Shown here one piece after another: positions 3,266-15,209 of a stretch of DNA of 20,188 bases; the first letter of the stretch is position 1, and each line of letters starts with the position of its first letter. A program made the position numbers and the translations under genes. The stretch comes from a virus. The stretch lies in the IMG/VR virus record IMGVR_UViG_3300046095_000094, positions 1 through 20,188 of that record; one strand, written 5' to 3'. The notes below the pieces were generated by a model. It had not been told where the DNA came from and searched no databases. It worked only from the letters and a program-made list of their open reading frames with translations.

Positions 3266-3697
3266 ATGACAACAGTAGAACAATTAACACAAGTATTCAA
3301 CGACAACTTTGTAGCATACTTTAGAAGTCATGCTGCACATATCAACATTACAGGACGCAACTTTCGTAGTGATCACAAATTGCTGCAAGGTGTTTACGAA
3401 CGCAGACAAGCACAAATTGATATTATTGGTGAATTGCTACGCACTGTAGATGAGTATATGCCATGTGACATATTTGAAATTCTAGACTCAAGTGAAGTGA
3501 AGCCTACACGCATTGAAGGCTCTAGTGATGAACTATTGGAAGCAGTGCAAGCGGATTTAGAAACACTAAAAGGTTGCTATGAAGAACTAATGGCCATTGC
3601 TGCCATTGAAGGTCATGAAGAAATTGCCAACTATGCCCAGGATCAGATCCTAGACATAGCTAAAAGTATTTGGATGTTAAAGTCCACAGTGGGTTAA
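3266..3697 (+). CDS. dps: Dps/ferritin-like protein (143 aa)
   Basis: The protein follows the Dps four-helix plan. Helix A ends in YFRSHAAHINITGRNF (18-33), matching the Dps pattern H-W-N-x-x-G-x-x-F. Helix B is SDHKLLQGVYERR (35-47) continuing to IDIIGELLR (51-59). A C-terminal helix contains IAKSIWMLKS (131-140). Against E. coli Dps, H25, H37, D52 and E56 line up with the ferroxidase ligands H51, H63, D78 and E82, while Q41 replaces D67. Known Dps proteins form 12-subunit cages that oxidise Fe2+ with peroxide and shield DNA. The lysine-rich DNA-binding tail of E. coli Dps is absent, as in many family members. The start lies one base after the previous stop, so translation is probably coupled. 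It ends the + strand unit and faces the converging acetyltransferase gene. I am fairly sure of the fold and less sure that the iron site works. Confidence 0.75.
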   Translation: MTTVEQLTQVFNDNFVAYFRSHAAHINITGRNFRSDHKLLQGVYERRQAQIDIIGELLRTVDEYMPCDIFEILDSSEVKPTRIEGSSDELLEAVQADLETLKGCYEELMAIAAIEGHEEIANYAQDQILDIAKSIWMLKSTVG

Positions 3698-3775: not shown

Positions 3776-4270
3776 TTATACCGCACTCAACTTTTTGTAA
3801 GCATAGCTACCACGCACATCATAACCATGTCGTGCGTGTAGTTTTAAGAATCCATCTTGCTCTTTACGCATAGTAGTTGAACAGATAACAGGTGTATTAG
3901 TTGCAACAGCAAACTTTTCCCAAATGTCTAACATATCAGTTATTAATCGTAAGCGGTCACGAGAACTAAGTTGCAAGTCAACGTGTGCCATACGAATGAC
4001 AATCATAGTGTCGTCACTCCAAGGTGCTCGTTCTCCTGACTTTGCCCAAGTGTAGCCCAATAGCTTATTGTCAGCATCTTTAGCAACATAAAGTAGCTCA
4101 GAGCCTGGCAAATAAAATTGGTTTACAACTGCAAAGGTAATGTTGCGACTGTAAGCAACAGGATCGGGTGTAAAAACTGTGTCAACTTCAGTTTGGAAAT
4201 GGCCTACTGCCATTTGGACAATGTCAGCAACATCAGTTCCGTGTGCTGGAGTCCAGGTGTATTGTATCAT
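3776..4270 (-). CDS. GNAT-like N-acetyltransferase (164 aa), the only reverse-strand gene
   Basis: The order of elements fits a GNAT fold: strand ELLYVAKDADNKLLGYTWA (58-76), strand MIVIRMAHVDLQL (89-101), helix RLRLITDMLDIWEKFA (106-121), strand PVICSTT (127-133), then FLKLHARHGYDVRGSYAYKK (141-160), the typical last part (x-F-Y-x-x-x-G-F). The acetyl-CoA loop, normally R/Q-x-x-G-x-G/A, reads LSSRDRLRL and has no glycine, so cofactor binding may be altered or lost. Start ATG (4270) is chosen because AAAGGAAT (complement of 4275-4282) precedes it. A longer reading to 4342 would run across both divergent promoter motifs. The substrate is unknown. The TTAAATA element upstream suggests its own late promoter. 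Inverted placement in a co-directional late region suggests a separately acquired unit. Confidence 0.65.
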   Translation of the reverse strand: MIQYTWTPAHGTDVADIVQMAVGHFQTEVDTVFTPDPVAYSRNITFAVVNQFYLPGSELLYVAKDADNKLLGYTWAKSGERAPWSDDTMIVIRMAHVDLQLSSRDRLRLITDMLDIWEKFAVATNTPVICSTTMRKEQDGFLKLHARHGYDVRGSYAYKKLSAV

Positions 4271-4293
4271 TACTATTCCTTTCAATGAAACAG

Positions 4294-4300
4294 TATTTAA
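4294..4300 (-). promoter_or_regulatory. Putative late-type promoter element TTAAATA for the GNAT-like gene
   Basis: On the - strand TTAAATA lies 24 bases before the start codon of the reverse gene, with its ribosome binding site in between. It is the only TAAATA hexamer I found on the - strand of the window and it sits in front of the only - strand gene. It differs by one base from the six + strand CTAAATA elements. Confidence 0.5.
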
Positions 4301-4319
4301 GCTCGTTAGAATATAGGTG

Positions 4320-4326
4320 CTAAATA
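4320..4326 (+). promoter_or_regulatory. Putative late-type promoter element CTAAATA (site 1)
   Basis: CTAAATA is followed by AAAGTATGG. The first 13 bases, CTAAATAAAAGTA, are identical to those at 12135-12147. If it acts like a T4 late -10 box, transcription would start about six bases after its last A, at the A of ATG 4332. No Shine-Dalgarno sequence precedes that ATG. It is 20 bases from the divergent TTAAATA element. Confidence 0.55.
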
Positions 4327-4331
4327 AAAGT

Positions 4332-4679
4332 ATGGAAAACATAGAATCAAATAGTATAGAACCCGCAGGTCACGGAGGTGCTCGCCCTGGTGCTGGTCGC
4401 CCAAAAGGCCAAACAAATAGATTAACTGCCAAAGAGATCTTAGACACTGCCAGTTCGATGATGGGCAAGCCCTTTGTTGTAAGTTTAATCGAAGGCTACA
4501 TTGACACAATTAACTCAGGTGATGTTCGTAATCGTGTAGTTTACGAAAAGATGATCTTAGATAAGACTGCTACAACAATCATTGAAGCAGAAATAACGGA
4601 CAGTTCTGATGCGGTTGAAATGAAGAAAGCAGCGTTTGCAGAAGCAATGGCCAATTTATTAAAAACAAAATCAGACTAA
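4332..4679 (+). CDS. Putative terminase small subunit-like protein (115 aa)
   Basis: The N-terminus carries GGARPGAGRPKGQTNR (residues 15-30), a basic Gly/Arg/Pro motif common at the start of phage small terminase subunits and related DNA-binding proteins. Helical sequence follows (LTAKEILDTASSMMG, FVVSLIEGYIDTINS) with a charged C-terminus. Known small terminases form rings that recognise the packaging site and stimulate the large terminase. The large terminase lies 2.9 kb downstream rather than next door, so this is uncertain; the 99-aa gene at 7103 is a rival candidate. Start ATG 4332 is chosen because it lies exactly at the transcript start predicted from CTAAATA 4320-4326. A GTG at 4317 in the same frame would overlap that element. 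Neither start has a Shine-Dalgarno sequence, so a leaderless mRNA is likely. Confidence 0.5.
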   Translation: MENIESNSIEPAGHGGARPGAGRPKGQTNRLTAKEILDTASSMMGKPFVVSLIEGYIDTINSGDVRNRVVYEKMILDKTATTIIEAEITDSSDAVEMKKAAFAEAMANLLKTKSD

Positions 4680-4682
4680 ATA
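4676..4682 (+). promoter_or_regulatory. Putative late-type promoter element CTAAATA (site 2)
   Basis: The element contains the TAA stop (4677-4679) of the upstream gene and is followed by TAATATG. The predicted start near 4687-4688 gives a leader of about 45 bases before the next gene, which has its own AAAGGA site. An ATG at 4687 opens a five-codon frame (MLMLP, stop TGA 4702-4704) of unknown meaning. Confidence 0.5.
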
Positions 4683-4693
4683 TAATATGCTAA

Positions 4694-4715
4694 TGCTGCC
4701 ATGAAGGCTGCGGCA
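4694..4715 (+). other. Small hairpin in the leader of the orphan-gene unit
   Basis: TGCTGC (4694-4699) can pair with GCGGCA (4710-4715), six pairs including one G-U, with a ten-base loop. It lies 6-7 bases after the predicted transcript start of site 2 and just before the ribosome binding site at 4720-4726. No T-run follows, so it is not a terminator. It could be chance. Confidence 0.25.
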
Positions 4716-4732
4716 AACAAAAGGAAAATAAA

Positions 4733-5065
4733 ATGAAAGAATCAAACAGTCAGAAAGCCGTTCCTGGTTATGATGCCGCAACAGGCACTTCAAACCCTGG
4801 TTACAGCCGACACGCTGACAAGTTCGCTAAGAACCAGCACACAGGTCACAGCAATGATGGTCGCACAGTAAACTTTGGTCGTGGCCCAACTGGTGGCGGA
4901 ACCAAAGTTCCAGTTGCTAAAGAAATCACAATGGGTTGTCACCAACCACAAGTGCGCACTCCAGGTGGCACTCGTGCATTTGATCCAAGCGCAACAAAGA
5001 ATTACAAAGGCAACGCTGACAGCATTAACGTAGGACGTGGCCCAACTAAAGGGAACCAACAATAA
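4733..5065 (+). CDS. Gly/Asn-rich small protein with repeated RGPT motif (110 aa), unknown function
   Basis: I do not recognise this family. The protein is polar, low in hydrophobic residues and probably mostly unstructured. It carries NFGRGPTGGG (47-56) and NVGRGPTKGN (about 99-108), near copies of each other. A third copy (KRGPTTGN) lies near the start of the protein at 5435. The central part has two His-containing stretches (NQHTGHSND and GCHQPQ). AAAAGGA (4720-4726) precedes ATG 4733. The stop overlaps the next start (TAATG), so the two are translationally coupled. Its place in the late region suggests a minor virion or assembly factor. That is inference only. Confidence 0.6.
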   Translation: MKESNSQKAVPGYDAATGTSNPGYSRHADKFAKNQHTGHSNDGRTVNFGRGPTGGGTKVPVAKEITMGCHQPQVRTPGGTRAFDPSATKNYKGNADSINVGRGPTKGNQQ

Positions 5066-5487
5066 TGAACGCATATCAAGTTATTGGCAACACTGAAGTT
5101 ATCACAGCAACTGCCACTTCAAGTGAAATCAACATTACTCCACAAGAAACTTTGGGTCTTGGTGGCGTTATTGGTCCTAAGTATCTAAAGATTACTAACG
5201 GTAGCGCTGATCAAAACGTTTACTTCAAAACTGGTTTAACTAGTCAGACAGCAGTTATCCCAACAGCAGGCAGTCCAGGTAGCACACCTATCCCAGCATA
5301 CGGTGAAGTTATTATTCAAGTTGCCGCAGACAGTGTTAACCCACCAGCAACAGTTTATGTTGCCGCAGTAGCTGCAAGTTCAAGCACAGTATATGTGACA
5401 CCTGTTGTATTAGCAGGATTCTAAAGGAAAAATTATGTCAACAAACCCACAAGGCAACAAAGCCATTAATCAGAAGCGTGGCCCAAC
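4880..5487 (+). repeat. Dispersed 11-bp DNA word CGTGGCCCAAC encoding RGPT (three copies)
   Basis: CGTGGCCCAAC occurs at 4880-4890, 5036-5046 and 5477-5487, each time in frame as R-G-P-T (last T completed by the following base). Two copies are in the 110-aa gene and one in the 94-aa gene, with an unrelated gene between. Identical codon choice at all three suggests recent duplication or selection on the DNA word. Confidence 0.6.
5065..5424 (+). CDS. Beta-rich small protein, putative virion decoration protein (119 aa)
   Basis: The sequence alternates short hydrophobic strands and turns (KYLKITNG 44-51, NVYFKTGL 56-63, GEVIIQVA 80-87, TVYVAAVAA, TVYVTPVVLAGF at the end), suggesting a compact beta sandwich without catalytic motifs. 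This style fits small capsid decoration or fibre-attachment proteins, but I do not recognise the family. It starts within the stop codon of the previous gene (TAATG, 5063-5067) and ends ten bases before the next start, so it belongs to the same four-gene unit. Virion role is inferred from fold style and location. Confidence 0.6.
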   Translation: MNAYQVIGNTEVITATATSSEINITPQETLGLGGVIGPKYLKITNGSADQNVYFKTGLTSQTAVIPTAGSPGSTPIPAYGEVIIQVAADSVNPPATVYVAAVAASSSTVYVTPVVLAGF

Positions 5488-5719
5488 AACAGGCAACGCA
5501 GGTAACACAACCAAGCGTAATACTTTCATGGATGAAAAGTCAGCTACTGGTAGCGAACGTGCTACTATTGCCAACATGATCACAGATGCTTTAGGCATGC
5601 GTGGCCGTGGTCAAGCTCCTACTGTTAATCCAGCATTGGAAGGCTTACACGATCGCACTGGTCCTAAAAAGAATCCAACTGCTAACGGAAGCAAGTTGCC
5701 AGCCAAGTATAAGAAGTAA
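5435..5719 (+). CDS. Basic polar small protein with RGPT motif (94 aa), unknown function
   Basis: The N-terminus (NQKRGPTTGNAGN, residues 12-24) repeats the RGPT-x-G motif of the 110-aa protein two genes upstream. The rest is polar, with a possible short helix around SERATIANMITDALGMRGRG and a lysine-rich end (KLPAKYKK). The net charge is positive, so nucleic acid or partner binding is possible. AAAGGA directly follows the previous stop and supports the start. I do not recognise a family. Confidence 0.6.
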   Translation: MSTNPQGNKAINQKRGPTTGNAGNTTKRNTFMDEKSATGSERATIANMITDALGMRGRGQAPTVNPALEGLHDRTGPKKNPTANGSKLPAKYKK

Positions 5720-5724
5720 GCATC

Positions 5725-6216
5725 ATGGGCTTTATGTCAACAATGCCAGCTTTAGGTGGAGATCAGCCACAAGGTCCTCAAATGGGTTTTGGGCTTGATC
5801 CAGCTACAGGTTTGCCATTTGGTCAAGACGGTATGCAAGCACAGCCAATGCCAGTGCAACAACCTGGCGCACAACTACAACCATTGCCAGCAGGATTGCC
5901 AACTGTTGGACTAGGTGGTGGCAAAGGTATGACAATGCAACCAGCTCCACAAGTTGGTAATATGCCTAACGCTGGTTTAAATCCACCACAGATGCAATTG
6001 CCACAAGGTCCGCAAATGGGTTTTGGTATGCCAGCACCAATGGCACAACCTGGTAATCAGATTACAGCTCCAAGCGGTGGTTCTAACTCACCAGTTAGAA
6101 CACAGTTGCCACAGCAAGCACCACAGCAAGCGCAGCCTATCAATCGCTTTGCACCTCCTAATGCCCCTGGTGTTAGACCCGGAGCAAATCGCTACACACG
6201 CACTCGCCTTCGCTAA
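5725..6216 (+). CDS. Gln/Pro/Met/Gly-rich low-complexity protein (163 aa), unknown function
   Basis: About the whole length is low complexity, dominated by P, Q, G, M and A, with an arginine-rich C-terminus (ending RTRLR). An internal duplication places QGPQMGFG at about residues 17-24 and again at about 96-103. No domain is recognisable and the chain is probably disordered. The start has only a weak AAG-type site in the tail of the upstream gene. An in-frame ATG nine bases later (5734) is an alternative. The stop TAA lies inside the next CTAAATA element. It could be a disordered virion protein or assembly adaptor, but there is no direct evidence. Confidence 0.55.
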   Translation: MGFMSTMPALGGDQPQGPQMGFGLDPATGLPFGQDGMQAQPMPVQQPGAQLQPLPAGLPTVGLGGGKGMTMQPAPQVGNMPNAGLNPPQMQLPQGPQMGFGMPAPMAQPGNQITAPSGGSNSPVRTQLPQQAPQQAQPINRFAPPNAPGVRPGANRYTRTRLR

Positions 6217-6219
6217 ATA
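6213..6219 (+). promoter_or_regulatory. Putative late-type promoter element CTAAATA (site 3)
   Basis: The element contains the TAA stop (6214-6216) of the upstream gene. The predicted transcript start near 6225 lies at the foot of a perfect hairpin (6227-6251). It is placed to drive the run from the 274-aa gene through the large terminase. Confidence 0.5.
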
Positions 6220-6226
6220 GAACAGC

Positions 6227-6251
6227 AGCAACGGGACAGACTCCCGTTGCT
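6227..6251 (+). other. Perfect 10-bp hairpin at the predicted 5' end of a transcript
   Basis: AGCAACGGGA (6227-6236) pairs without mismatch with TCCCGTTGCT (6242-6251) around the five-base loop CAGAC. The following bases (TATGCATAG) contain no T-run, so it is unlikely to be a rho-independent terminator. It begins about two bases after the start predicted from site 3 and ends 28 bases before ATG 6279. A protective 5' stem-loop or a protein-binding site would fit. The alternative is a rho-type or weak terminator for the upstream unit. Confidence 0.5.
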
Positions 6252-6278
6252 TATGCATAGAAAATAAAGGAAAAGAAC

Positions 6279-7103
6279 ATGCAAAAATCAAACACTCCAG
6301 CGGACAATCCTTGGGATGCTCCAGTAGAAGCAACATCCGAGAAAGCTCCAGCAAAAACTCCCAAAGCAAGCAAGTCAAAAACAGAATGGATTGTAACTCC
6401 AGAAGTTGCAGCAGCACCTGTTGTCCCAGCAGCCACTAACGCTGGCGAATATGACTTAGAAGGCTTGATGACTGACTTCCCAACTGCAACAGACTTAGAA
6501 CGTTTTGTTTACGACGAAACTGGTATCGTATTAGCTCTTAAAGGTCGTGCCAACAAATTAAAGTATCAAGTTGCAATGGACGCACTTAACGGTGTTGCAG
6601 TTGATGCCAAGTATATTGGTAATGACAACCCTTACATTGACCGCACTGAATTAGTTCCCATTGACCCAATCAAGGAACCACCAGCACGTAGTTCTGCATT
6701 GCCAGATCGCAGCCAGGTTCAGAACGTATTCTTAAGCAACGTTATTCCTCATCCAGATGAAGAAGCACGAGCACAAGATAAAAAGGTCAGTATGTTGTTC
6801 CGCAAATACAACAACGGCATGATCAGTTATGAAACATTGGGTCCTTTAGAACAACGCCCATACGGTGAGAAGATTGACAAGTTTGGTCGCACACGTCCAG
6901 AAGTTATCAAGTGGGTTGATCCACGCACAGGTGAACAAGTTATCATGCGTGAAGATGGCACACTAACTCCACAAGGTAAACGTCTACGTGCTATGATGCA
7001 AACTTTCAAAGTTAACAAGAGCAACCAATGGGACACTTGGATTGACCGCGAATTTGTTTCGTTGAATGATGCAGTTGCACACAACCCATGGGATCTTAAG
7101 TAA
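6279..7103 (+). CDS. Uncharacterised phage protein (274 aa)
   Basis: Not recognised. The first 55 residues are a Lys/Ala/Pro-rich probably disordered arm (NPWDAPVEA, KTPKASKSK). Residues about 60-110 look alpha/beta (ATDLERFVYDETGIVLALKG, LKYQVAMDAL). The C-terminal half has conserved-looking charged motifs (RTRPEVIKWVDPRTGEQ, LTPQGKRLRAMM) and ends in PWDLK, partly echoing the NPWDAP near the N-terminus. AAAGGAAAAG sits before ATG 6279. The stop overlaps the next start (TAATG). It is the first gene after promoter site 3 in the packaging cluster, so a role in packaging or head assembly is plausible but unproven. Confidence 0.6.
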   Translation: MQKSNTPADNPWDAPVEATSEKAPAKTPKASKSKTEWIVTPEVAAAPVVPAATNAGEYDLEGLMTDFPTATDLERFVYDETGIVLALKGRANKLKYQVAMDALNGVAVDAKYIGNDNPYIDRTELVPIDPIKEPPARSSALPDRSQVQNVFLSNVIPHPDEEARAQDKKVSMLFRKYNNGMISYETLGPLEQRPYGEKIDKFGRTRPEVIKWVDPRTGEQVIMREDGTLTPQGKRLRAMMQTFKVNKSNQWDTWIDREFVSLNDAVAHNPWDLK

Positions 7104-7402
7104 TGAGCACTACTCCTGAGGCTCGCGATACAATTATTGACCAAGCCCAGCAAGAGCGTATGACTCGTGATACGCTTATTTTGCAAAAGGTCAACAGTGC
7201 TCACCGCGAAGCATTTATCCAAAAGTTTCCTGGACAATGTGAACACATTCTACGATTGATTGCTGAACGCTTGCAAGCCATTATGACTAACAAGCCGCCA
7301 GCACTTAACGATCCAGAAACATGGGCAGCTACGGCAGCGGAAATTGCTTCACTATCTGAAGCACTATACTACATCTATCAAGTTCACCGGGAGCAAAAAT
7401 GA
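7103..7402 (+). CDS. Small helical protein upstream of the large terminase (99 aa)
   Basis: The chain is almost wholly helical by composition (ARDTIIDQAQQERMTRDTLIL, CEHILRLIAERLQAIM, AATAAEIASLSEALYYIYQVHRE), with no metal or nucleotide motifs. It starts in the TAATG junction with the 274-aa gene and its stop overlaps the next start (ATGA), so three genes are coupled. Small terminase subunits are often helical proteins of about this size lying just before the large subunit, so this is a second candidate for that role besides the gene at 4332. I cannot decide between them from sequence alone. Confidence 0.6.
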   Translation: MSTTPEARDTIIDQAQQERMTRDTLILQKVNSAHREAFIQKFPGQCEHILRLIAERLQAIMTNKPPALNDPETWAATAAEIASLSEALYYIYQVHREQK

Positions 7403-7584
7403 CAAACATTGCATCTAATGAAGACAGCAGTTTTAATGTCACTGCTACTCCTGTTCCTACACTTGGCACACATATCACATTTCGTTTAGAAGAAGATGGT
7501 ATGGGCACAACTGAAATTGATTATGTGTTTGATCAATACGATCTAGAAAACTTAATCAATTATCTAACGCAATTTAAAGTATAA
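7399..7584 (+). CDS. Very small alpha/beta protein (61 aa), unknown function
   Basis: The second half reads as two strands and a helix (HITFRLEEDGMGTTEIDYVF then QYDLENLINYLTQF); the first 20 residues are polar. It is acidic and has no known motif. GGGAG (7389-7393) precedes the ATG, which overlaps the previous stop (ATGA), and the large terminase starts one base after its own stop. The coupling on both sides supports it as a real gene despite its length. Confidence 0.6.
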   Translation: MTNIASNEDSSFNVTATPVPTLGTHITFRLEEDGMGTTEIDYVFDQYDLENLINYLTQFKV

Positions 7585-7585
7585 G

Positions 7586-9211
7586 ATGATAGGCACAGAA
7601 ACCTTAATGGCTCGTGCCTTGCGTTATTCGCTCGATGATCAAGGCGTTGCACCTGAAACTTATCTAACCTGGCCTACCAATTTACAAAATGTAATGCAGG
7701 ACTTGGTTATAGGAGTAGCAGATGACATGAAGTATAATCAATTAAAATACTTTAGGCCATTTGATCATCAACTTACTTTCTTTGGCACAGGATCAAATAA
7801 AAGTAGTGAACGACGCGGCATTCTAGCCGCAAACCGTATTGGTAAAACAGTAAGCACATGTGCGGAAACAGCCATGCATCTAACAGGACAATATCCTGAA
7901 TGGTGGAATGGTCATCGTTTCAATAAGCCAATCACTTGTATGGTAGCAGGTGAAGGTTGGTCACAGGTTGCGCTTGTATTACAGAATGAACTGCTGGGAA
8001 CCCAAGATGTTAAGATTACAGAGAACTTAGGCACGGGTTTCGTTCCTCGCGACTGCATCGTTACAGACACTATGCGCAATGATGGTGCTAACTGTATTGG
8101 TGTAGAGATCAAACATGTAAGTGGCTCAAACAGCTACTTGCTATTTGCAAACTATACGCAGGAAGTTCGTCAGCTACAAGGTTTTAAATTGAACCTTGCA
8201 GTGTTTGATGAACAGCCACCAGATGACTTTTTCTCTGAAATCGTTACTAGAACTGCTACCACACAAGGTAAAGTGTTGTGTTCGTTTACACCACTTAAAG
8301 GCCTTAACGGTCTAGTATCAAAGTTTTGGAACAAAGAAGAAGGATATGAGTTTATTCGTGTAAGTTGGGATGATGTTCCAGAGTATGATCCCTGGGGCAT
8401 GCCATTCCTGCTGAAGGAGACTCGCCGTCAGTTAGAGCGTGATTACTTGCCACATGAACGTGAAGCACGTATTGCTGGTAAACCAGTTATGGGTAAAGGT
8501 GCTGTGTTCCAATTACGTGAATGGCCTACTTACACTACTGGTGAAATTGATTTTACACGCATACCAAACATCCATCGTGTTATTGCACTTGACTTAGGCT
8601 TGGTAAATGACCAAACAGTCATATCATTAATGTATTGGGAACCATATGAAAGAACAGCTTACTTACATAGACAAATTTGTGTGCAGGGCATTGAAGAAGC
8701 TGTGCCCTCTCAGTATATCAATCATTTACTTCGTCCTGAAGTGTTTGGCACTCCTATCGTTTTACCTGCTGATGCTAGCACTGCTGGCCGATACACAATG
8801 AGTAGTAACAGCATTCGTGAAATGTTTGAAAGCTATGAACTAAACGTATATCACAAAGCAATTATGAATCCCCCTGACCAAGAAGGTCGTGTAACTAATC
8901 ATAAGAGTTATGGTATCAACCAGATGCGCCAAATGTTAGAAGTTGGCAGTCTAATGATCAATGAAAATTGCACACAGTTTCTAAGTGACGCACGTAACTA
9001 TTACGTAGACTCACAAGGACGCTTCTCTGACCCAGACGACACCATTGACTCTGCACGTTATGCATTGCTGGCGTGCTTGCAAGGAATAGCTGAGCCGTGG
9101 GACAATAGAACACCACAGCAAAGAATGATGGCTGCAAGAGACAAGTATTACCGTCCAAAAGACGAATCTAACTTGCCAGCTTGGAAAAAGACAATGAACC
9201 CAGGAGGTTAA
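7586..9211 (+). CDS. terL: Terminase large subunit, ATPase and nuclease (541 aa)
   Basis: This is the DNA packaging motor that cuts concatemers and pumps DNA through the portal. The ATPase half shows a variant Walker A AANRIGKTVS (81-90, K87), Walker B NLAVFDEQ (203-210, D208 and catalytic E209) and coupling motif CSFTPLKGL (232-240). The linker REARIAGKPVMGKGAVF (292-308) is the G-x-P-x-x-G-x-G-x-V-F signature of phage terminases. The RNase H-like nuclease half has VIALDLGLVND (332-342, D336), LPADAS (393-398, D396) and DPDDTIDSARYA (482-493), giving the three acidic metal ligands. The length is normal. The start is one base after the upstream 61-aa gene, so it is probably coupled; no strong ribosome site is visible. 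Downstream are a small zinc-type protein and the portal. Confidence 0.95.
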   Translation: MIGTETLMARALRYSLDDQGVAPETYLTWPTNLQNVMQDLVIGVADDMKYNQLKYFRPFDHQLTFFGTGSNKSSERRGILAANRIGKTVSTCAETAMHLTGQYPEWWNGHRFNKPITCMVAGEGWSQVALVLQNELLGTQDVKITENLGTGFVPRDCIVTDTMRNDGANCIGVEIKHVSGSNSYLLFANYTQEVRQLQGFKLNLAVFDEQPPDDFFSEIVTRTATTQGKVLCSFTPLKGLNGLVSKFWNKEEGYEFIRVSWDDVPEYDPWGMPFLLKETRRQLERDYLPHEREARIAGKPVMGKGAVFQLREWPTYTTGEIDFTRIPNIHRVIALDLGLVNDQTVISLMYWEPYERTAYLHRQICVQGIEEAVPSQYINHLLRPEVFGTPIVLPADASTAGRYTMSSNSIREMFESYELNVYHKAIMNPPDQEGRVTNHKSYGINQMRQMLEVGSLMINENCTQFLSDARNYYVDSQGRFSDPDDTIDSARYALLACLQGIAEPWDNRTPQQRMMAARDKYYRPKDESNLPAWKKTMNPGG

Positions 9212-9457
9212 ATGAACAAAACAGGACGCTTTTTAACAACAGTGGGGGAACAACCCCCTGTTGTGCTATGTGAAGAACACGCTAAGGTGTTTGAAATGGC
9301 AATGGTAGCCAATGAAATACCACATACCATCTACGAGTTTGATGATGAAACGGAAAGCCAATACTGTCAAGCATGTGATTTGCAAGTGGCCAAAGCATAC
9401 GCAAAGCAAGTAGAAGATGCAAGCACTCCAAAGATTGTTATGCCAGGTGAATTTTGA
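9212..9457 (+). CDS. Small putative zinc-binding protein (81 aa)
   Basis: C20-x2-H23 (LCEEHAK) and C52-x2-C55 (YCQAC) are spaced like the two halves of a zinc knuckle, with a short alpha/beta stretch between (FEMAMVANEIPHTIYEFDDE). The family is not recognised. A near-ideal AGGAGG (9201-9206), the strongest ribosome binding site in the window, lies inside the end of the terminase gene, and ATG 9212 directly follows the terminase stop. The protein should therefore be made in larger amount than its neighbour. Zinc binding is inferred from cysteine spacing only. Confidence 0.65.
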   Translation: MNKTGRFLTTVGEQPPVVLCEEHAKVFEMAMVANEIPHTIYEFDDETESQYCQACDLQVAKAYAKQVEDASTPKIVMPGEF

Positions 9458-9462
9458 ATTGA

Positions 9463-9469
9463 CTAAATA
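9463..9469 (+). promoter_or_regulatory. Putative late-type promoter element CTAAATA (site 4, portal)
   Basis: The element lies in the 39-base gap before the portal gene, five bases after the upstream stop. The predicted start near 9475 leaves a leader of about 22 bases containing the portal ribosome site AAAAGGG (9479-9485). Confidence 0.5.
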
Positions 9470-9496
9470 AGTTATTAGAAAAGGGACCTCATACCA

Positions 9497-11773
9497 ATGT
9501 TAGATATTAAAAATATCCCAGTAGAGAACATCAATCAGAACAAAAAGATCAATGCCACTTTTGTTCGCATGAAAAACCAAATGGATGTCAAAATGGCATC
9601 TTATTTGCGCTACCTGGGCACAAAAAACGCTGTTAATAGAGCAAGTGATTATCACTACTTGTGCCTAGCAGTTACAGACTCTACTGCGCCAGTTAACGGC
9701 ATTGACTACATTCACCCAAGCGTTAAACCAGTTGTTGATTATGCAACAGCAGTTATTGCAAAGGGTCTTATGCCCAATGGTGAAATTAACTTTGACTTTG
9801 TAGCCGATGGTGAAGATGACGAAGCAGCCGCAAGACAAGCAACAAACATGGTTAGCAAAGTTGTTAACCAAATGAATGATCCACACTTTGTTTTAGAACG
9901 CTGGGTTATGGATGCTAACATGCACAAAAACGGTATGATGATGATTAAACCTGTGCGTGAACAAATTACTCGTTATGTTGAAACGTCAGGCACAAACGAT
10001 CAACTACGTGCATTTGAATTACAAGCTGCTGAATCGGGTTTAACTGCATTGCGTCAAAGCAAGCGTCGTGAAACAGTTGACATGATGAAAGTCATGGAAG
10101 AAGCTACACAATTACTAGGCGAACAAAAAACAGAATACGCCAAAGGTGTTGCACAACGTTTCATGATGGATTTAAATGAAGGCGAAGAAGCAGCACAACA
10201 ATTTGGTGCCGAAGGCGACAGCATTGTTCAAGGCAACTTAGACGAACAAGAATCAATTATCAACGATGCTATTGCTCGTAACACAACTTACAAAGCCAAG
10301 TATAAACTAACTGGCTATAACATTAACGTTAAGTTTCATCCTATTGCACAACACTATTGGATTTGCGATCCAACAGTTCCTGAAATGAAAGATCAACCAT
10401 TCTGTGGTTACTACGATCCAATGAGCATTCAGGAAGCAATGGACTTGTATCCAGACATTGACTTAGAGCAGTTCCGTGTTCACGCAGAATACAACATGAA
10501 CGGTGCTTACCAAGCTGGTTCAGTATTAAACAACTTGGCTATCCATGCACGTGACTCAGTTCCAGTTATGGGTATTCCGGTAAGTTCAGCAGCAAGTGCT
10601 GATCCAGACAGCCGCCAAGTGTCTATTGTTACAGTATGGAACAAGTATGACATTGATGGTGATGGCGAACTAGAACTAGTGGAATTGATTTATTCTGGTA
10701 GCTACATTATCTCTGCTCGTGAAGTAGAGTTTATCCCAGTTGCTAACATGTGTCCAAAGCCATTGCCAGGCAACTTCTATGGTATGAGTATTGCTGAGTC
10801 AGTTATTCCAATGCAGGAATACAACACATCCGCAGCTCGTGCAGAAATTCAATTGGGCTTGCTAACAGCTACTCCACGTATTGGTGTTAAGCCTGACCGT
10901 GTTGACTTTGAAATGATGCAAGATGGCGAATCAGCAATCTTTATCCTGGACTCAAAATTTGACCCAGCCAAAGACATTTACCAAATGCCACCTCCTTCTG
11001 GCAACTTGCAATTCTTAGAAGTTGCAATGAACCGTATCCAACAAGATACAATGGCCATGGTTGGTATGACTACTCCACAAGATGTATTCAATCCAGAAGT
11101 AATGGCTCCTGGTAACTCAGGCATTAAGTTGCAAATGGCTCTAAGCCCTAACCAAATTATTCAAGACAACACAGTTCGTAACGCTGCTGAAGGCTTACGT
11201 GAAGCGTTGTGGTTGGTATGGCGCACATTGATCCAATACGGTGACGACTACGGCGTTAAGAAATTAGCTGCCACTTGCCACCCAGACAAGAAAGCTGAGT
11301 TCTTAGACTACCTAGCATGGGATGACATGAACTTCTGTGATCGTAAGCAATTACACTTAGAACTTGCATTAGGCATGAAGTCTGAAGAAAACGCATTGGG
11401 TCGCTTACAAATCATCCAAAAGTGCCAAACTGATTTATATCAAATGGTTCAAGGTATGGCTGCTAGCGGTTCAATGACTCCTGAAATTTACAAGAAAGTT
11501 AAAAAGCCATTTGCTGATACGCTGTATGTGCTTGGCGTTAAAGACTGCAACTCATACTTGCCAACAGATGATGAAGTTGTTGCTATGATTGAAGCAGGAC
11601 AAAAAGCCTCAGCTAACAAGGGCCCAAGCCCAGTAGATCAGAAGGATCTAAGTGTTGCTAAATTGAATGAAGTTAAAGCACAGCAAATTGCCGCAGAAGT
11701 TGCAGGTCAAGACGCTGAAAGCCAATTAGACTTTATGTCAATGGCCGCAGGTGATCCAAAAGTTTACAGTTAA
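9497..11773 (+). CDS. Portal protein, P22 gp1-like (758 aa)
   Basis: The portal is the 12-subunit ring at the capsid vertex through which DNA enters and leaves. Features of the large podovirus-type portals: SDYHYLCLAVTDSTAPVNGIDY early on, an acidic Ala-rich segment, then the core with GNFYGMSIAES (about 425-435), AARAEIQLGLLTATPRIGV and a long helical part rich in PNQIIQDNTVRNAAEGLREALW. The length of 758 is close to P22 gp1 (725). Residues around 170-265 are a charged, repetitive helical region; the C-terminal 60 residues are helical and Gln/Ala-rich. The gene stands between the terminase cluster and the scaffold, as in many head modules. ATG 9497 follows AAAAGGG with an 11-base gap. Confidence 0.9.
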   Translation: MLDIKNIPVENINQNKKINATFVRMKNQMDVKMASYLRYLGTKNAVNRASDYHYLCLAVTDSTAPVNGIDYIHPSVKPVVDYATAVIAKGLMPNGEINFDFVADGEDDEAAARQATNMVSKVVNQMNDPHFVLERWVMDANMHKNGMMMIKPVREQITRYVETSGTNDQLRAFELQAAESGLTALRQSKRRETVDMMKVMEEATQLLGEQKTEYAKGVAQRFMMDLNEGEEAAQQFGAEGDSIVQGNLDEQESIINDAIARNTTYKAKYKLTGYNINVKFHPIAQHYWICDPTVPEMKDQPFCGYYDPMSIQEAMDLYPDIDLEQFRVHAEYNMNGAYQAGSVLNNLAIHARDSVPVMGIPVSSAASADPDSRQVSIVTVWNKYDIDGDGELELVELIYSGSYIISAREVEFIPVANMCPKPLPGNFYGMSIAESVIPMQEYNTSAARAEIQLGLLTATPRIGVKPDRVDFEMMQDGESAIFILDSKFDPAKDIYQMPPPSGNLQFLEVAMNRIQQDTMAMVGMTTPQDVFNPEVMAPGNSGIKLQMALSPNQIIQDNTVRNAAEGLREALWLVWRTLIQYGDDYGVKKLAATCHPDKKAEFLDYLAWDDMNFCDRKQLHLELALGMKSEENALGRLQIIQKCQTDLYQMVQGMAASGSMTPEIYKKVKKPFADTLYVLGVKDCNSYLPTDDEVVAMIEAGQKASANKGPSPVDQKDLSVAKLNEVKAQQIAAEVAGQDAESQLDFMSMAAGDPKVYS

Positions 11774-11793
11774 GAATTTAAAAAGGAAAAGCA

Positions 11794-12138
11794 ATGATTA
11801 GTGAAGAAGCAGTAGACGCTTACAATAGACGTCTAACAATTGATACAAGTAACCCAAAGAAACTTACGCCAAGTCAACGAGATGCTGTGAAGAGCTATGG
11901 CTCCCAGGCAGAAGCATTAATGAAGAATCGTGAATTGGCTATGTTTATACATCACTTCAAATTTGAAGTAAATGATGTAATGGCAAATATTAGAACACAT
12001 TCAGAGGAAGCAAATGCAGAACGTATTGCACTTGCCAATCAGCTCTCTGGCATTGACAGTTTTGTAAACACATTAAAAAGTGCAATTTACAAACGAAATA
12101 TGCTGATCAAAGCAGAAGCCTCGGAATCAAAAGACTAA
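11794..12138 (+). CDS. Small helical protein between portal and scaffold (114 aa), unknown function
   Basis: The sequence is charged and helical throughout, with a probable coiled segment from about residue 47 to 108 (ELAMFIHHFKFEVNDVMANI, ERIALANQLSGIDSFVNTLK). It has no cysteines or enzyme motifs. AAAAAGGAAAA before ATG 11794 is a good ribosome site. The stop TAA (12136-12138) lies inside the next CTAAATA element. The place between portal and scaffold suggests a minor head-assembly protein. The family is not recognised. Confidence 0.6.
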   Translation: MISEEAVDAYNRRLTIDTSNPKKLTPSQRDAVKSYGSQAEALMKNRELAMFIHHFKFEVNDVMANIRTHSEEANAERIALANQLSGIDSFVNTLKSAIYKRNMLIKAEASESKD

Positions 12139-12141
12139 ATA
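12135..12141 (+). promoter_or_regulatory. Putative late-type promoter element CTAAATA (site 5, scaffold and capsid)
   Basis: CTAAATAAAAGTA (12135-12147) is identical over 13 bases to site 1, and the TAA stop of the upstream gene is embedded in it. It is placed to drive the scaffold and major capsid genes, which need the highest expression and end at the strong terminator at 14581. Confidence 0.55.
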
Positions 12142-12163
12142 AAAGTAGAGGTAACCGCAAGGC

Positions 12164-12180
12164 CCTTTTACAATTAAAGG
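12164..12180 (+). promoter_or_regulatory. Leader stem that would mask the scaffold ribosome binding site
   Basis: CCTTT (12164-12168) can pair with AAAGG (12176-12180), the core of the AAAGGA ribosome site of the scaffold gene, across a seven-base loop. The stem has only five pairs, so any effect on translation would be modest. Confidence 0.25.
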
Positions 12181-12187
12181 ATAGAAA

Positions 12188-13351
12188 ATGACAGACACGA
12201 TCATCCCTAACGCTCCCCAGAGCGCGGGCACTGAACAAAGTGCAGTTCCAAGTTTAGACTCAATAGCACAGAAAATGACCGCGATGCGAAATGAAACATT
12301 GCGTAATCAAATCCGTCCTACTGAACAAACTGCAACAGGAGCAGAAGTAGAGGAAGATACTTCCAGCCCTGTGGCACCCAGCGATACAGCTGAAGCCGAA
12401 GTTGTTGAAACTAACGACACTGAATATGCTAGCGACAATCAAGAAGCAGAAGCCCATGAAGATGTAAGCTCTGATAGTAATGATTCTAGTGCAGAAGAAC
12501 TAATTGACTTCATTGAATTTGCAGATAGTAATCCTAATGCAAAGTTCAAGTTCATGAAAAATGGAAAAGAAGTTGTTATTGATGCCAAGAAAGCCGCAGC
12601 CATTTTAGGTCAGGGATCAGCAATACACGAAGAAGCACGCCAACTGAAGATTGACCGCGCAGAGTTTGATGAATATATCAACGATGTTCGCTCTAGACAA
12701 GAAGGTTTGACTCTAGCGATGGAATTCACCGTGCAACCAAAATTGCAGAAAGCATATGACGAGATTCTTAAAACGCAATCTTATCAAACAACTTTCCAAC
12801 AACAGTTAGCACAAACCCGTGATCCAGCACAAGTTGCAAGGATCCAAGCAAGTATGCAACAGAATGAACAATACATTCGTCAGCAACAACAGACTATTGG
12901 TCAGTTGAAACCAGCTGTAGATCAGTTCAGACAAGTGCGTGCTCAGCAGGTAACAGAGCGCTTAGATCATGCTCGCAAGGGCTTCAAAGACAAGGATTTG
13001 AAAAATGAATTTGTCTATAATGAAGTTCGCGACAAGCTAAGTAAACTGTGGCCCGAAGCTAAAGGTGAAATCATTCCTGGAGTTTCTAATATTGACTTGC
13101 TGTCAAGTGATGAAGGTTTATTAAGCCTAGTCCGTGACGGTTTGCGATACAGAGATAAACCAACTACTAAGTCTGCAGGGAGCTCAATGGCAGCATTGAC
13201 TCAACGTAAAGGTTCAACCGCACAGCGCAGCAGTGGTGATAGTGATATCAGTAAACTTCGTGAACAAGCCAAAGGCGGCGATAAAAAAGCCGCAGACAAC
13301 CTCTTAGTAGCTCAGTTGCAAAGATTGCGACAGGGAAGAGGCGGAAGATAA
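12188..13351 (+). CDS. Putative capsid scaffolding protein (387 aa)
   Basis: Position directly before the major capsid gene and composition fit a scaffold, the internal protein that guides procapsid assembly and then leaves. The N-terminal 110 residues are strongly acidic and probably disordered. A short alpha/beta patch (AKFKFMKNGKEVVIDAKKAAAIL, about 118-140) follows, then long Gln-rich helices (QPKLQKAYDEILKTQ to QVTERLDHARKG). The C-terminus is basic (LREQAKGGDKKAA, ending RLRQGRGGR), as expected for a capsid-binding tail. Sequence identity to known scaffolds cannot be judged by eye, since this class diverges quickly. AAAGGA (12176-12181) precedes the ATG. Confidence 0.75.
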   Translation: MTDTIIPNAPQSAGTEQSAVPSLDSIAQKMTAMRNETLRNQIRPTEQTATGAEVEEDTSSPVAPSDTAEAEVVETNDTEYASDNQEAEAHEDVSSDSNDSSAEELIDFIEFADSNPNAKFKFMKNGKEVVIDAKKAAAILGQGSAIHEEARQLKIDRAEFDEYINDVRSRQEGLTLAMEFTVQPKLQKAYDEILKTQSYQTTFQQQLAQTRDPAQVARIQASMQQNEQYIRQQQQTIGQLKPAVDQFRQVRAQQVTERLDHARKGFKDKDLKNEFVYNEVRDKLSKLWPEAKGEIIPGVSNIDLLSSDEGLLSLVRDGLRYRDKPTTKSAGSSMAALTQRKGSTAQRSSGDSDISKLREQAKGGDKKAADNLLVAQLQRLRQGRGGR

Positions 13352-13378
13352 TAACCATAATTTAAAGGAAAAATAATC

Positions 13379-14554
13379 ATGGCGGAAATTACTACGAGTC
13401 AGATTGGTAACGGCACTACAGCTTATGGCAGTGACATCGTTGTCAAAGACTTAGACCTAGATGTGTCTAACCGTGTTAAAGATGACACACCTGTATTGAA
13501 CATGGCAATGTCTAAAAAGCGTAAAGTTAACTCTACTTTGCCTTTGTGGACAGACGATATCTATCGTGCTCCAGCAGTTCAAGCGCAAGTTGAAGGCGCA
13601 GCAGTTGCAACAAGTCAAGGCGAGTCAAACTCTCGTTTCAACTTGGGTAACTACACACAAATTTTCAGCACAGTTATTGCATCAAGCGGCACAGCTCGCG
13701 CAGTTATGCAAGCTGGTGGCGATCCACAAGCATACCAAGAAGTTAAGCAATTGATTGAATTGATGTTTGACGTTGAAATGCAATTGGTTCGTAACGACCA
13801 AATCGGCACAAAGTATGCTGGTCAAACTGGTTCAGCTTCTGGCTTGCCAAGTGGTCAAACTGGTCGTCGTATGGGTTCATTGGCTTCTTTCGCAGGCACA
13901 ATGTCTTTCAATACAACTTCTGGCACATTAAGCGGTTTGGATACATTCACAAACAACGAATCTACAGACAGTGCGTCTCAAGGTTCTAACGTTTTGAACA
14001 TCAACGCTAACGGTAGCAACTTCTACTCTGGCACATTTACTAACCAGTATTTCTCTCCAGCGTTATACAAGCAGTTGGTTACAGTTGCTGAACAACGTTA
14101 CAATGCGAAAATCCGCACTGTAGTTGCTCCAACAAGCCTACGCACTTCGATCAGTGACAACATTGCTCAATCACGTGGTATCAACCGTGTTGATTCTGCT
14201 CGTGGTGACACGATTCAGACTTACGAAGGTGACTTCAACTACAGCTACGAAATTCACGATTCTTGGATCATGGATCAAGCTGGTGTTTCTAACAGCATCT
14301 ACTTCTTGAACGAAGACGTAGTTCAGTGGGGTTCATTGCGTGATCTAGGTCCAAACAACGAAGTGTTCTCGAACGCTGACGCTAGTTTAGATCAGTTCAT
14401 CATGGAAGGAACATTGATTGTTCGTAACCCAGCTGGTGTTGGTATGTTGAACAACATCACAGCAGGCACAACTGCACAAGCCTCTTTACCAGGTGCTCGC
14501 CCAGCGGCATTGGTTCAGCGTGTAAACAGCGGTGCTGGCGACGTTACTCCTTAA
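13379..14554 (+). CDS. Major capsid protein, SU10/DUF5309-like (391 aa)
   Basis: This protein forms the icosahedral or elongated head shell. The family pattern is visible: an N-terminal arm with DLDVSNRVKDDTPVLNMA, then LPLWTDDIYRAPAVQAQVEG, FNLGNYTQIFSTVIASSGTARA, a helix VKQLIELMFDVEMQLVRND and a C-terminal domain with YEGDFNYSYEIHDSWIMD. This order is that of the DUF5309 proteins, which include the phage SU10 capsid, with the HK97 fold. Codon choice is noticeably biased (many GTT, GCT, AAC, CGT), as expected for the most abundant virion protein. AAAGGA precedes ATG 13379. The gene follows the scaffold by 27 bases and is closed by a strong terminator. Confidence 0.88.
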   Translation: MAEITTSQIGNGTTAYGSDIVVKDLDLDVSNRVKDDTPVLNMAMSKKRKVNSTLPLWTDDIYRAPAVQAQVEGAAVATSQGESNSRFNLGNYTQIFSTVIASSGTARAVMQAGGDPQAYQEVKQLIELMFDVEMQLVRNDQIGTKYAGQTGSASGLPSGQTGRRMGSLASFAGTMSFNTTSGTLSGLDTFTNNESTDSASQGSNVLNINANGSNFYSGTFTNQYFSPALYKQLVTVAEQRYNAKIRTVVAPTSLRTSISDNIAQSRGINRVDSARGDTIQTYEGDFNYSYEIHDSWIMDQAGVSNSIYFLNEDVVQWGSLRDLGPNNEVFSNADASLDQFIMEGTLIVRNPAGVGMLNNITAGTTAQASLPGARPAALVQRVNSGAGDVTP

Positions 14555-14580
14555 TTCGTAATAGGATTAGGTTGAACACA

Positions 14581-14606
14581 GAAAAGACCCTTCGGGGTCT
14601 TTTCTT
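14581..14606 (+). terminator. Rho-independent terminator after the major capsid gene
   Basis: GAAAAGACCC (14581-14590) and GGGTCTTTTC (14595-14604) form a perfect 10-bp stem capped by a very stable TTCG tetraloop, with TTTTCTT at the 3' side. It lies 26 bases after the capsid stop codon and only six bases before the next promoter element. It should limit read-through from the highly expressed capsid unit. Confidence 0.92.
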
Positions 14607-14612
14607 ATGACA

Positions 14613-14619
14613 CTAAATA
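14613..14619 (+). promoter_or_regulatory. Putative late-type promoter element CTAAATA (site 6)
   Basis: The element directly follows the capsid terminator and restarts transcription. ATG 14625 lies 12 bases from its first base, the same spacing as at site 1. This places the predicted transcript start on the start codon itself. No Shine-Dalgarno sequence is present. Confidence 0.55.
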
Positions 14620-14624
14620 ACACT

Positions 14625-15209
14625 ATGAGCGATAATAACCAACCAGAATACCTAGACGACAGCGACCCAGAAAAGAATTACGATTACTGGCGTCAAGATC
14701 ATGGCGGCATGATCACAAACCACAACGGTTTAGCAGATAAACTGTTAACAAACGACAACCTTTACCGTAGCATGAAAGGTGATTGGACACGCACAGCATG
14801 GAACAAAGGCGAAAACATCAAAGTGACTACTGGTCGCGAAGATGGTAAGTTTTACATCAAACGCGAGCAAATGAACACTGATGAAATCAAGCAACGTGTT
14901 AAGATGTATAGATTGGCTGCTGAACGTGGCGGCTTAGATCCATTAGCACCATTAGGCGATGATGGTAAGCTAAGCCACAAGTGGATGGAGCTACCAACAG
15001 TTATTGCTATTCGTATTAGTGACCAATACTTTGATGGCATTCCTTGGGCAGCATTAAAGAACGACAGAACAATGAAAGCACAATTCTACCGAGTAGTAGA
15101 AACAGAATATCCTGAGTATGTGTGCTACCCAGGCGGTAAATTGCCAATCCCAGTTGCGGTGCCATACCCAACTAAAAAGGGCGAACAGAAATATTTCAAA
15201 GGAAACTAA
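14625..15209 (+). CDS. Uncharacterised phage protein downstream of the capsid gene (194 aa)
   Basis: Not recognised. The N-terminus is acidic and polar (SDNNQPEYLDDSDPEKNYDYW). The middle holds charged helices (QMNTDEIKQRVKMYRLAAERGG). The C-terminal part is rich in aromatic and proline residues (DQYFDGIPWAALKNDR, YPEYVCYPGG, PIPVAVPYPTKKG). No enzyme motif is visible. An in-frame ATG at 14607 would give 200 residues, but it abuts the terminator hairpin and lies upstream of the predicted transcript start, so ATG 14625 is preferred. There is no ribosome binding site at either. It directly precedes the adaptor gene (start right after the stop), suggesting a head-completion or neck-related role. 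That is inference. Confidence 0.6.
   Translation: MSDNNQPEYLDDSDPEKNYDYWRQDHGGMITNHNGLADKLLTNDNLYRSMKGDWTRTAWNKGENIKVTTGREDGKFYIKREQMNTDEIKQRVKMYRLAAERGGLDPLAPLGDDGKLSHKWMELPTVIAIRISDQYFDGIPWAALKNDRTMKAQFYRVVETEYPEYVCYPGGKLPIPVAVPYPTKKGEQKYFKGN

Follow-up and report, generated by a model that had tools for sequence, protein, structure and literature searches.

The 20,188-base IMG/VR record IMGVR_UViG_3300046095_000094, which was analysed entire and is called the window below, carries the heptamer CTAAATA in front of several of its genes, and the question raised by this locus is whether the heptamer belongs to a promoter and, if so, what reads it. The window represents an incomplete tailed phage genome encoding a SU10-family portal and capsid, a terminase, and a ferritin/Dps-type protein. 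From the sequence evidence assembled here we propose that [A/G][C/A]TAAATA is, with good probability, the late promoter of a phage clade that includes the window: a −10-only element used by a reader other than sigma-70 and giving two classes of transcript, with the early genes served by sigma-70. Large phages are known to use T4-type late promoters together with gp55, gp33, and gp45; in the present case such a promoter would be fixed across a widespread clade of 34–37 kb phages with no recognisable gp55, which poses a sharp and testable question: does a new type of sigma factor read it, or a factor from the host, or one from a co-infecting phage?

Placement and conservation of the element

CTAAATA occurred only on the plus strand of the window, at 4320, 4676, 6213, 9463, 12135, and 14613, exactly where an earlier note on this DNA had placed it, and the one minus-strand copy of the core, TAAATA at 4299–4294 (TTAAATA when read from 4300), lay ahead of the sole minus-strand gene (3776–4273). 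There was no further TAAATA on either strand, giving seven in total. The six CTAAATA copies compare with a shuffle mean of 2.5, and 3 of 100 shuffles gave that many; the seven TAAATA copies compare with 11.7 expected from dinucleotide shuffles, a count that by itself is unremarkable or slightly low. The unusual feature of TAAATA in the window is its position, not its count. Within coding sequences we found none in the sense and none in the antisense direction, versus 4.8 and 5.6, respectively, in 500 synonymous-codon shuffles, which averaged 10.4 together and never fell as low as zero. Every copy was at a gene boundary, as had been claimed; those at 4676, 6213, and 12135 overlapped the TAA that ends the preceding gene, and that at 14613 followed a strong terminator-like hairpin (14580–14601). 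The reported absence of a shared −35 box also held, and position-specific information was low around −35.

To place these sites in a wider context we used a related set of 80 IMG/VR loci, each closer to the window than is ctfne034 (MW202484, 41.8 kb), the closest deposited phage, with about 51% identity in the large terminase subunit (terL). Members of the clade are uncultivated and probably short-tailed phages. Four of them (G005, G013, G015, and G019; 34–37 kb) had terminal overlaps of 109–188 bp with 99–100% identity and, because of these overlaps, were taken as complete circularly permuted genomes, though IMG/VR lists them as linear. Orthologous genes were chosen independently of the motif, and TAAATA was counted within 110 nucleotides (nt) upstream. 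It preceded the portal gene in 71/71 relatives, gene 14625 in 38/38, the small terminase subunit gene (terS) in 32/34, and gene 6279 in 44/54; at control junctions without a predicted promoter it was found in 0/73 (gene 7103), 1/78 (terL), 1/34 (gene 15210), and 4/44 (major capsid protein, MCP). Before the scaffold gene it was at the window-equivalent site in 28 of 49 relatives, and one gene upstream, before open reading frame (ORF) 11794, in 21 of 50; such a shift of the site by one gene is more in keeping with a promoter than with an element tied to a particular gene. The divergent minus-strand gene had TAAATA upstream in 35 of 36 loci, always preceded by T, A, or G and never by C, so these sites are perhaps a weaker class.

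Over the 80 loci CTAAATA lay on the late-gene strand 235 times and on the other strand 22 times, versus 59:44 for the reversed control. The strand ratio, the codon shuffles, and the orthologous-junction counts rule out a chance origin of the pattern. The earlier note had named a normal frequency of TAAATA inside genes as grounds for refutation; this was not observed, five genomes that were complete or almost so having 3–10 copies against 16–41 expected, whereas the coding sequences of ctfne034 showed no such depletion (13 versus 16 expected). The sister clade to which ctfne034 belongs (45 loci; 52% terL identity) lacked the motif: its strand ratio for CTAAATA was 26:14, and its genes were preceded by TATAATC; judged by these sequences, the motif system is a feature of one clade. 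The predicted promoters of the window, with the two hairpins associated with them, are as follows.

4294–4300, minus strand: predicted divergent promoter TTAAATA of the GNAT-like gene, reading from 4300 to 4294
4319–4326, plus strand: predicted late promoter GCTAAATA; predicted +1 at 4332, the A of the terS ATG (leaderless)
4675–4682, plus strand: predicted late promoter ACTAAATA, overlapping the terS stop codon; predicted +1 near 4688
6212–6219, plus strand: predicted late promoter GCTAAATA, overlapping the stop codon of ORF 5725–6216; predicted +1 near 6225
6225–6256, plus strand: hairpin at the 5′ end of the predicted transcript, core 6227–6251 (AGCAACGGGA-CAGAC-TCCCGTTGCT); z-score −6.1 versus dinucleotide shuffles
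9462–9469, plus strand: predicted late promoter ACTAAATA of the portal gene; predicted +1 near 9475
12134–12141, plus strand: predicted late promoter ACTAAATA of the scaffold-position gene, overlapping the stop codon of ORF 11794–12138; predicted +1 near 12147
14580–14601, plus strand: terminator-like hairpin of the capsid-gene transcript (GAAAAGACCC-TTCG-GGGTCTTTTC); z-score −5.3
14612–14619, plus strand: predicted late promoter ACTAAATA; predicted +1 at 14625, the A of the ATG (leaderless)

Promoter anatomy and predicted transcripts

Alignment of 203 distinct copies gave A or G, then CTAAATA, then mainly A, with no −35 element; the base before C was A (0.53) or G (0.45), and rarely C (0.01) or T (0.01). 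The C was replaceable by A at orthologous sites, so that the full element is [A/G][C/A]TAAATA, with C or A at nearly all late-strand sites. A literature search for CTAAATA retrieved two known occurrences, the late promoter of phage Aeh1 and a motif of phage EspM4VN. In Aeh1, CTAAATA starts at −12 and a/g occupies −13, so that RCTAAATA spans −13 to −6 (PMC1524935, PMC2988020). The clade consensus is identical, purine at −13 included, and it shares with Aeh1 a preference for A at the +1 position and sites that follow terminators; our scan of the Aeh1 genome found the same form of element, and the base numbered +1 there was preferentially A. Aeh1 differs in that it belongs to the Straboviridae, has 233 kb of DNA, and encodes gp55 (PMC1524935), and also in its spacing, since 5 nt separate motif and ATG at only 1 of 27 scanned Aeh1 sites versus 89 of 265 in the clade. 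The T4 late promoter itself (TATAAATA, used with gp55, gp33, and gp45) is likewise −10-only, with a TAAATA core at −11 to −6 before structural genes; unlike T4, the clade has mostly C at −12, A or G at −13, no detectable gp55, a genome of about 35 kb, and a SU10-type portal and capsid. With the Aeh1 numbering, the clade sites have TAAATA at −11 to −6, A or C at −12, a/g at −13, and no −35 element, and they precede late (structural) genes in the right orientation.

The same sequence was strand-biased in two other gp55-coding phages, S-RIM2 (CTAAATA 26:0, ATAAATA 38:4) and Acidovorax phage ACP17 (CTAAATA 8:0). The Ackermannviridae phage EspM4VN has the motif CTAAATAcCcc (PMC7283392), which shares the core, though the downstream bases are C-rich there and A-rich in the clade; Vi01-like phages encode gp55 and gp33 (PMC3184105). 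The likeness to T4-type late promoters claimed in the earlier note was thus upheld by the exact match to the Aeh1 consensus together with the orthologous conservation, the strand bias, the depletion from genes, and a sigma-70 partition of the early genes. This partition was seen in the early (non-structural) region of G005, which contained two perfect (12/12) TTGACA-17-TATAAT promoters and two with 11/12 matches; sigma-70-like matches numbered 29 there versus 14.4 expected, compared with 35 versus 35.1 expected in the 20-kb late window. The partition between early sigma-70 sites and the late motif was clear in G005 only. The possibility that the motif is the −10 box of a host sigma-70 promoter was rejected. 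Sigma-70-type factors flip T−7 and A−11, and the invariant TAAATA of CTAAATA cannot provide both; it also comes with no −35.

Some observations weigh against our proposal. The overlapping hexamer ATAAAT, which shares five bases with TAAATA, was also depleted in all five genomes, and other AT-rich hexamers were depleted in some of them; a few copies of the motif lay off boundaries, for example within the terL gene of locus L085 at 10288, and a few lay in the variable early modules. Near-consensus sigma-70 sites were fewer in G013 and G015 and rare or absent in G019 and G021, and the clade has no known gene for gp55, gp33, or gp45.

The spacing of the motif to the downstream gene divided the sites into two groups. 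For gene 14625 the gap from motif to ATG was 5 nt in 31 of 34 distinct sequences and 6 nt in the other 3, and it stayed fixed while the distance from terminator to motif varied among relatives. Shine-Dalgarno (SD)-like sequences preceded only 7 of 74 short-gap genes (among them 2 of 31 copies of the terS arrangement and 4 of 38 copies of gene 14625) versus 71/71 portal, 44/44 MCP, and 53/55 gene 6279 copies. With the first base of the motif at −12, a 5-nt gap puts the predicted start on the A of the ATG, consistent with the start 5–7 nt past the motif that characterises T4/Aeh1-type late promoters. The lack of an SD sequence and the fixed gap beside a variable terminator distance make it the natural reading that the terS and gene 14625 mRNAs are leaderless. 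Leaderless phage mRNAs, with AUG at the 5′ end and no SD sequence, have general precedent; the clade differs in repeating one T4-type promoter architecture, at terS, gene 14625, and others. From the 5-nt class one would thus expect late mRNAs to be leaderless as a rule, with start sites that can be read from the sequence. The portal, scaffold, and gene 6279 transcripts would form the second class, with a leader of 20–60 nt bearing an SD sequence. The predicted leader of gene 6279 (6225–6278) opens with a hairpin whose stem sequences vary yet pair in most of 34 relatives, and which is a candidate translational operator or 5′ stabiliser. The loops of this hairpin fell into a few classes (CAGAC/AAGAC, ATGGG/ATAGG, and ACTA), and a conserved GCATAGAAAA followed it.

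That the motif acts as an RNA-level processing or stability signal at gene ends, and not as a promoter, we consider very improbable: overlap with stop codons at three of six copies and the conserved hairpin after one of them could be so explained, but the motif is depleted on the antisense strand of genes as well, lies upstream of the divergent gene, keeps a fixed 5-nt spacing to ATGs lacking an SD sequence, and exactly matches a known promoter class. Promoter function, the start site, and a gp55-like reader are what we infer instead. We envisage that late in infection RNA polymerase, directed by a factor other than sigma-70 that has the specificity of T4/Aeh1 gp55, would read the element at about −13 to −6 and begin transcription about six bases past the last A of the motif; the start would be the A of the ATG for terS and gene 14625, yielding leaderless mRNA, and would leave the SD leader on the portal, scaffold, and gene 6279 mRNAs. 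Early genes would be transcribed from ordinary host sigma-70 promoters. If so, the motif yields transcription-unit maps for hundreds of uncultivated contigs.

The reader of the promoter

The earlier note had described the system as T4-like late-promoter logic and expected a phage-encoded sigma factor such as gp55; the promoter class is strongly supported, whereas no gp55 was detectable. The search covered the four complete 34–37 kb relatives and about 20 partial ones, and profile, PHROG, Pfam, and profile–profile searches of the clade were all negative. The PHROG gp55 and Pfam Sigma70_r2 profiles matched in 0 of 23 records and Sigma70_r4_2 in 0/8, and Sigma70_r4 gave nothing above its cut-off, with one sub-threshold match (E 0.007, in G022). 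A gp55 profile built from nine diverse gp55 proteins, which in leave-one-out tests recovered its members at E 4e-15 or better, gave a best E of only 0.43 against the clade ORFs, and hhalign comparison of 39 clade families with gp55 gave at most 0.9% probability, compared with 98.5–99.6% for true gp55 groups. No gp33 or gp45 was present among the annotated ORFs, although no profile search was aimed at these two. The single-subunit RNA polymerase family PF00940 matched in 0/8, with the control set also without a match, and no ORF of the complete G005 looked like such a polymerase.

The reader would then be an unrecognised phage protein or would be supplied in trans, by the host or, less likely, by a co-infecting T4-like phage; we rank the first two about equally and above the third. 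A phage-encoded sigma factor or sigma-appropriating protein among the conserved core genes, too diverged or too new in type to be recognised, is a tentative choice, held at somewhat under even chances. All of the clade has the motif, and equally universal are several small proteins whose function is not known, such as those of gene 7103 (99 aa), gene 11794 (114 aa), and gene 9212 (81 aa; Cys/His pairs seen by eye). Moreover, phage 7-11, a relative of the SU10/phiEco32 type, encodes its own sigma factor for phage-specific late promoters with the motif tgatgttata (PMC4331800); the capsid and portal families of these phages (SU10_MCP, SU10_portal) are related to those of the clade, but the motif differs, and the sigma factor encoded there was not found in the clade. 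Weighing against a phage protein are the negative results with the calibrated gp55 profile and the 39-family comparison, and the AlphaFold models of genes 7103 and 6279, which matched no solved fold, sigma included (the 6279 model being of modest confidence). These two genes were rejected as sigma factors on this ground; they also lie behind CTAAATA promoters themselves, so that their products would have to arrive with the virion in order to act first. Iterative profile searches with 58 early ORFs found none common to all complete genomes. A 234-aa protein with two C-terminal helix-turn-helix motifs (L088:2917–3621) had no match in the phage collection; it was rejected as a common regulator because it occurred in only 9 of the record groups.

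A host alternative sigma factor or activator exploited by the phage is a comparably tentative possibility. It would account for the lack of a qualifying phage gene and for early modules that are fully exchanged among relatives all keeping the motif, and a change of host could cause the presence of the motif in one clade and not in its sister. However, a prophage scan of genome contigs aimed at the host gave a single remote match, to a contig of a Woesearchaeota metagenome-assembled genome (26% identity), and no tRNA genes were found. We also know of no bacterial sigma factor that recognises TAAATA and dispenses with a −35, and CTAAATA cannot offer a sigma-70-type factor both T−7 and A−11.

Virophages and giant viruses have late promoters in common. 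By analogy, complete phages of about 35 kb might pirate the gp55 of a co-infecting T4-like phage in trans, which we consider unlikely. The motif does equal the gp55-type late promoter to the base, with a/g at −13; a gp55 of their own was not found, in three of the four complete genomes none of the examined ORFs was recognisable as a replication protein, and one early-module ATPase is closest, among annotated relatives, to T4-like phages. Yet some clade members encode primase-like proteins, the capsid, terminase, and tail-gene set is full, and consensus sigma-70 early promoters are present at least in G005. The ATPase and a 218-aa early protein, searched for in IMG/VR, occurred on no contig longer than 36 kb. 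The idea that tail fibre or early genes connect the clade with large phages was discarded, as no homologues were found on contigs above 40 kb.

Neighbouring genes and related phages

The genes of the window that flank the predicted promoters, or were used in the comparisons above, are listed here.

3776–4273, minus strand: GNAT-type acetyltransferase by eye; no family match, conserved in relatives
4332–4679, plus strand: small basic protein, probably the terminase small subunit (terS; phrog_18735, weak, E 0.0018), heading a predicted leaderless transcript
7586–9211, plus strand: terminase large subunit (PF03237, PF17289; phrog_2)
9497–11773, plus strand: portal protein, SU10 family (PF23899, E 1.5e-44)
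12188–13351, plus strand: scaffold-position protein, by gene order between the portal and capsid genes; in 20 of the clustered record groups, no family match
13379–14554, plus strand: major capsid protein, SU10 family (PF17236, E 2.7e-35)
14625–15209, plus strand: late protein of 194 aa, conserved in relatives, predicted leaderless

The ferritin/Dps-type protein (3266–3697; PF00210, phrog_3636) was present in most of the clade and was not detected in ctfne034. The early module was nearly all different between relatives with 82–93% identical terminases (L088, L090, L093, L099, and L100), and contained ATPases, homing-endonuclease-like and primase-like proteins, a ParB-methyltransferase, and a glycosyltransferase-like protein. 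One of its genes, L107:4160–5008 on the minus strand, encodes an AAA-type ATPase related to phrog_1250, whose closest annotated relatives are mainly from T4-like phages (NrdC.10-like); it adjoins a homing-endonuclease-like ORF. The sister clade (about 41 kb; L087 and L110–L153) combined related structural genes and TATAAT-like upstream sequences with Erf, SSB, RusA, and Cro-like genes. At the second site of the terS region, relatives carried a gene for a small basic protein of about 50–60 aa, with its ATG 5–6 nt past the motif; in the window a short remnant of this gene seems to be left at 4687–4732, with the promoter retained.

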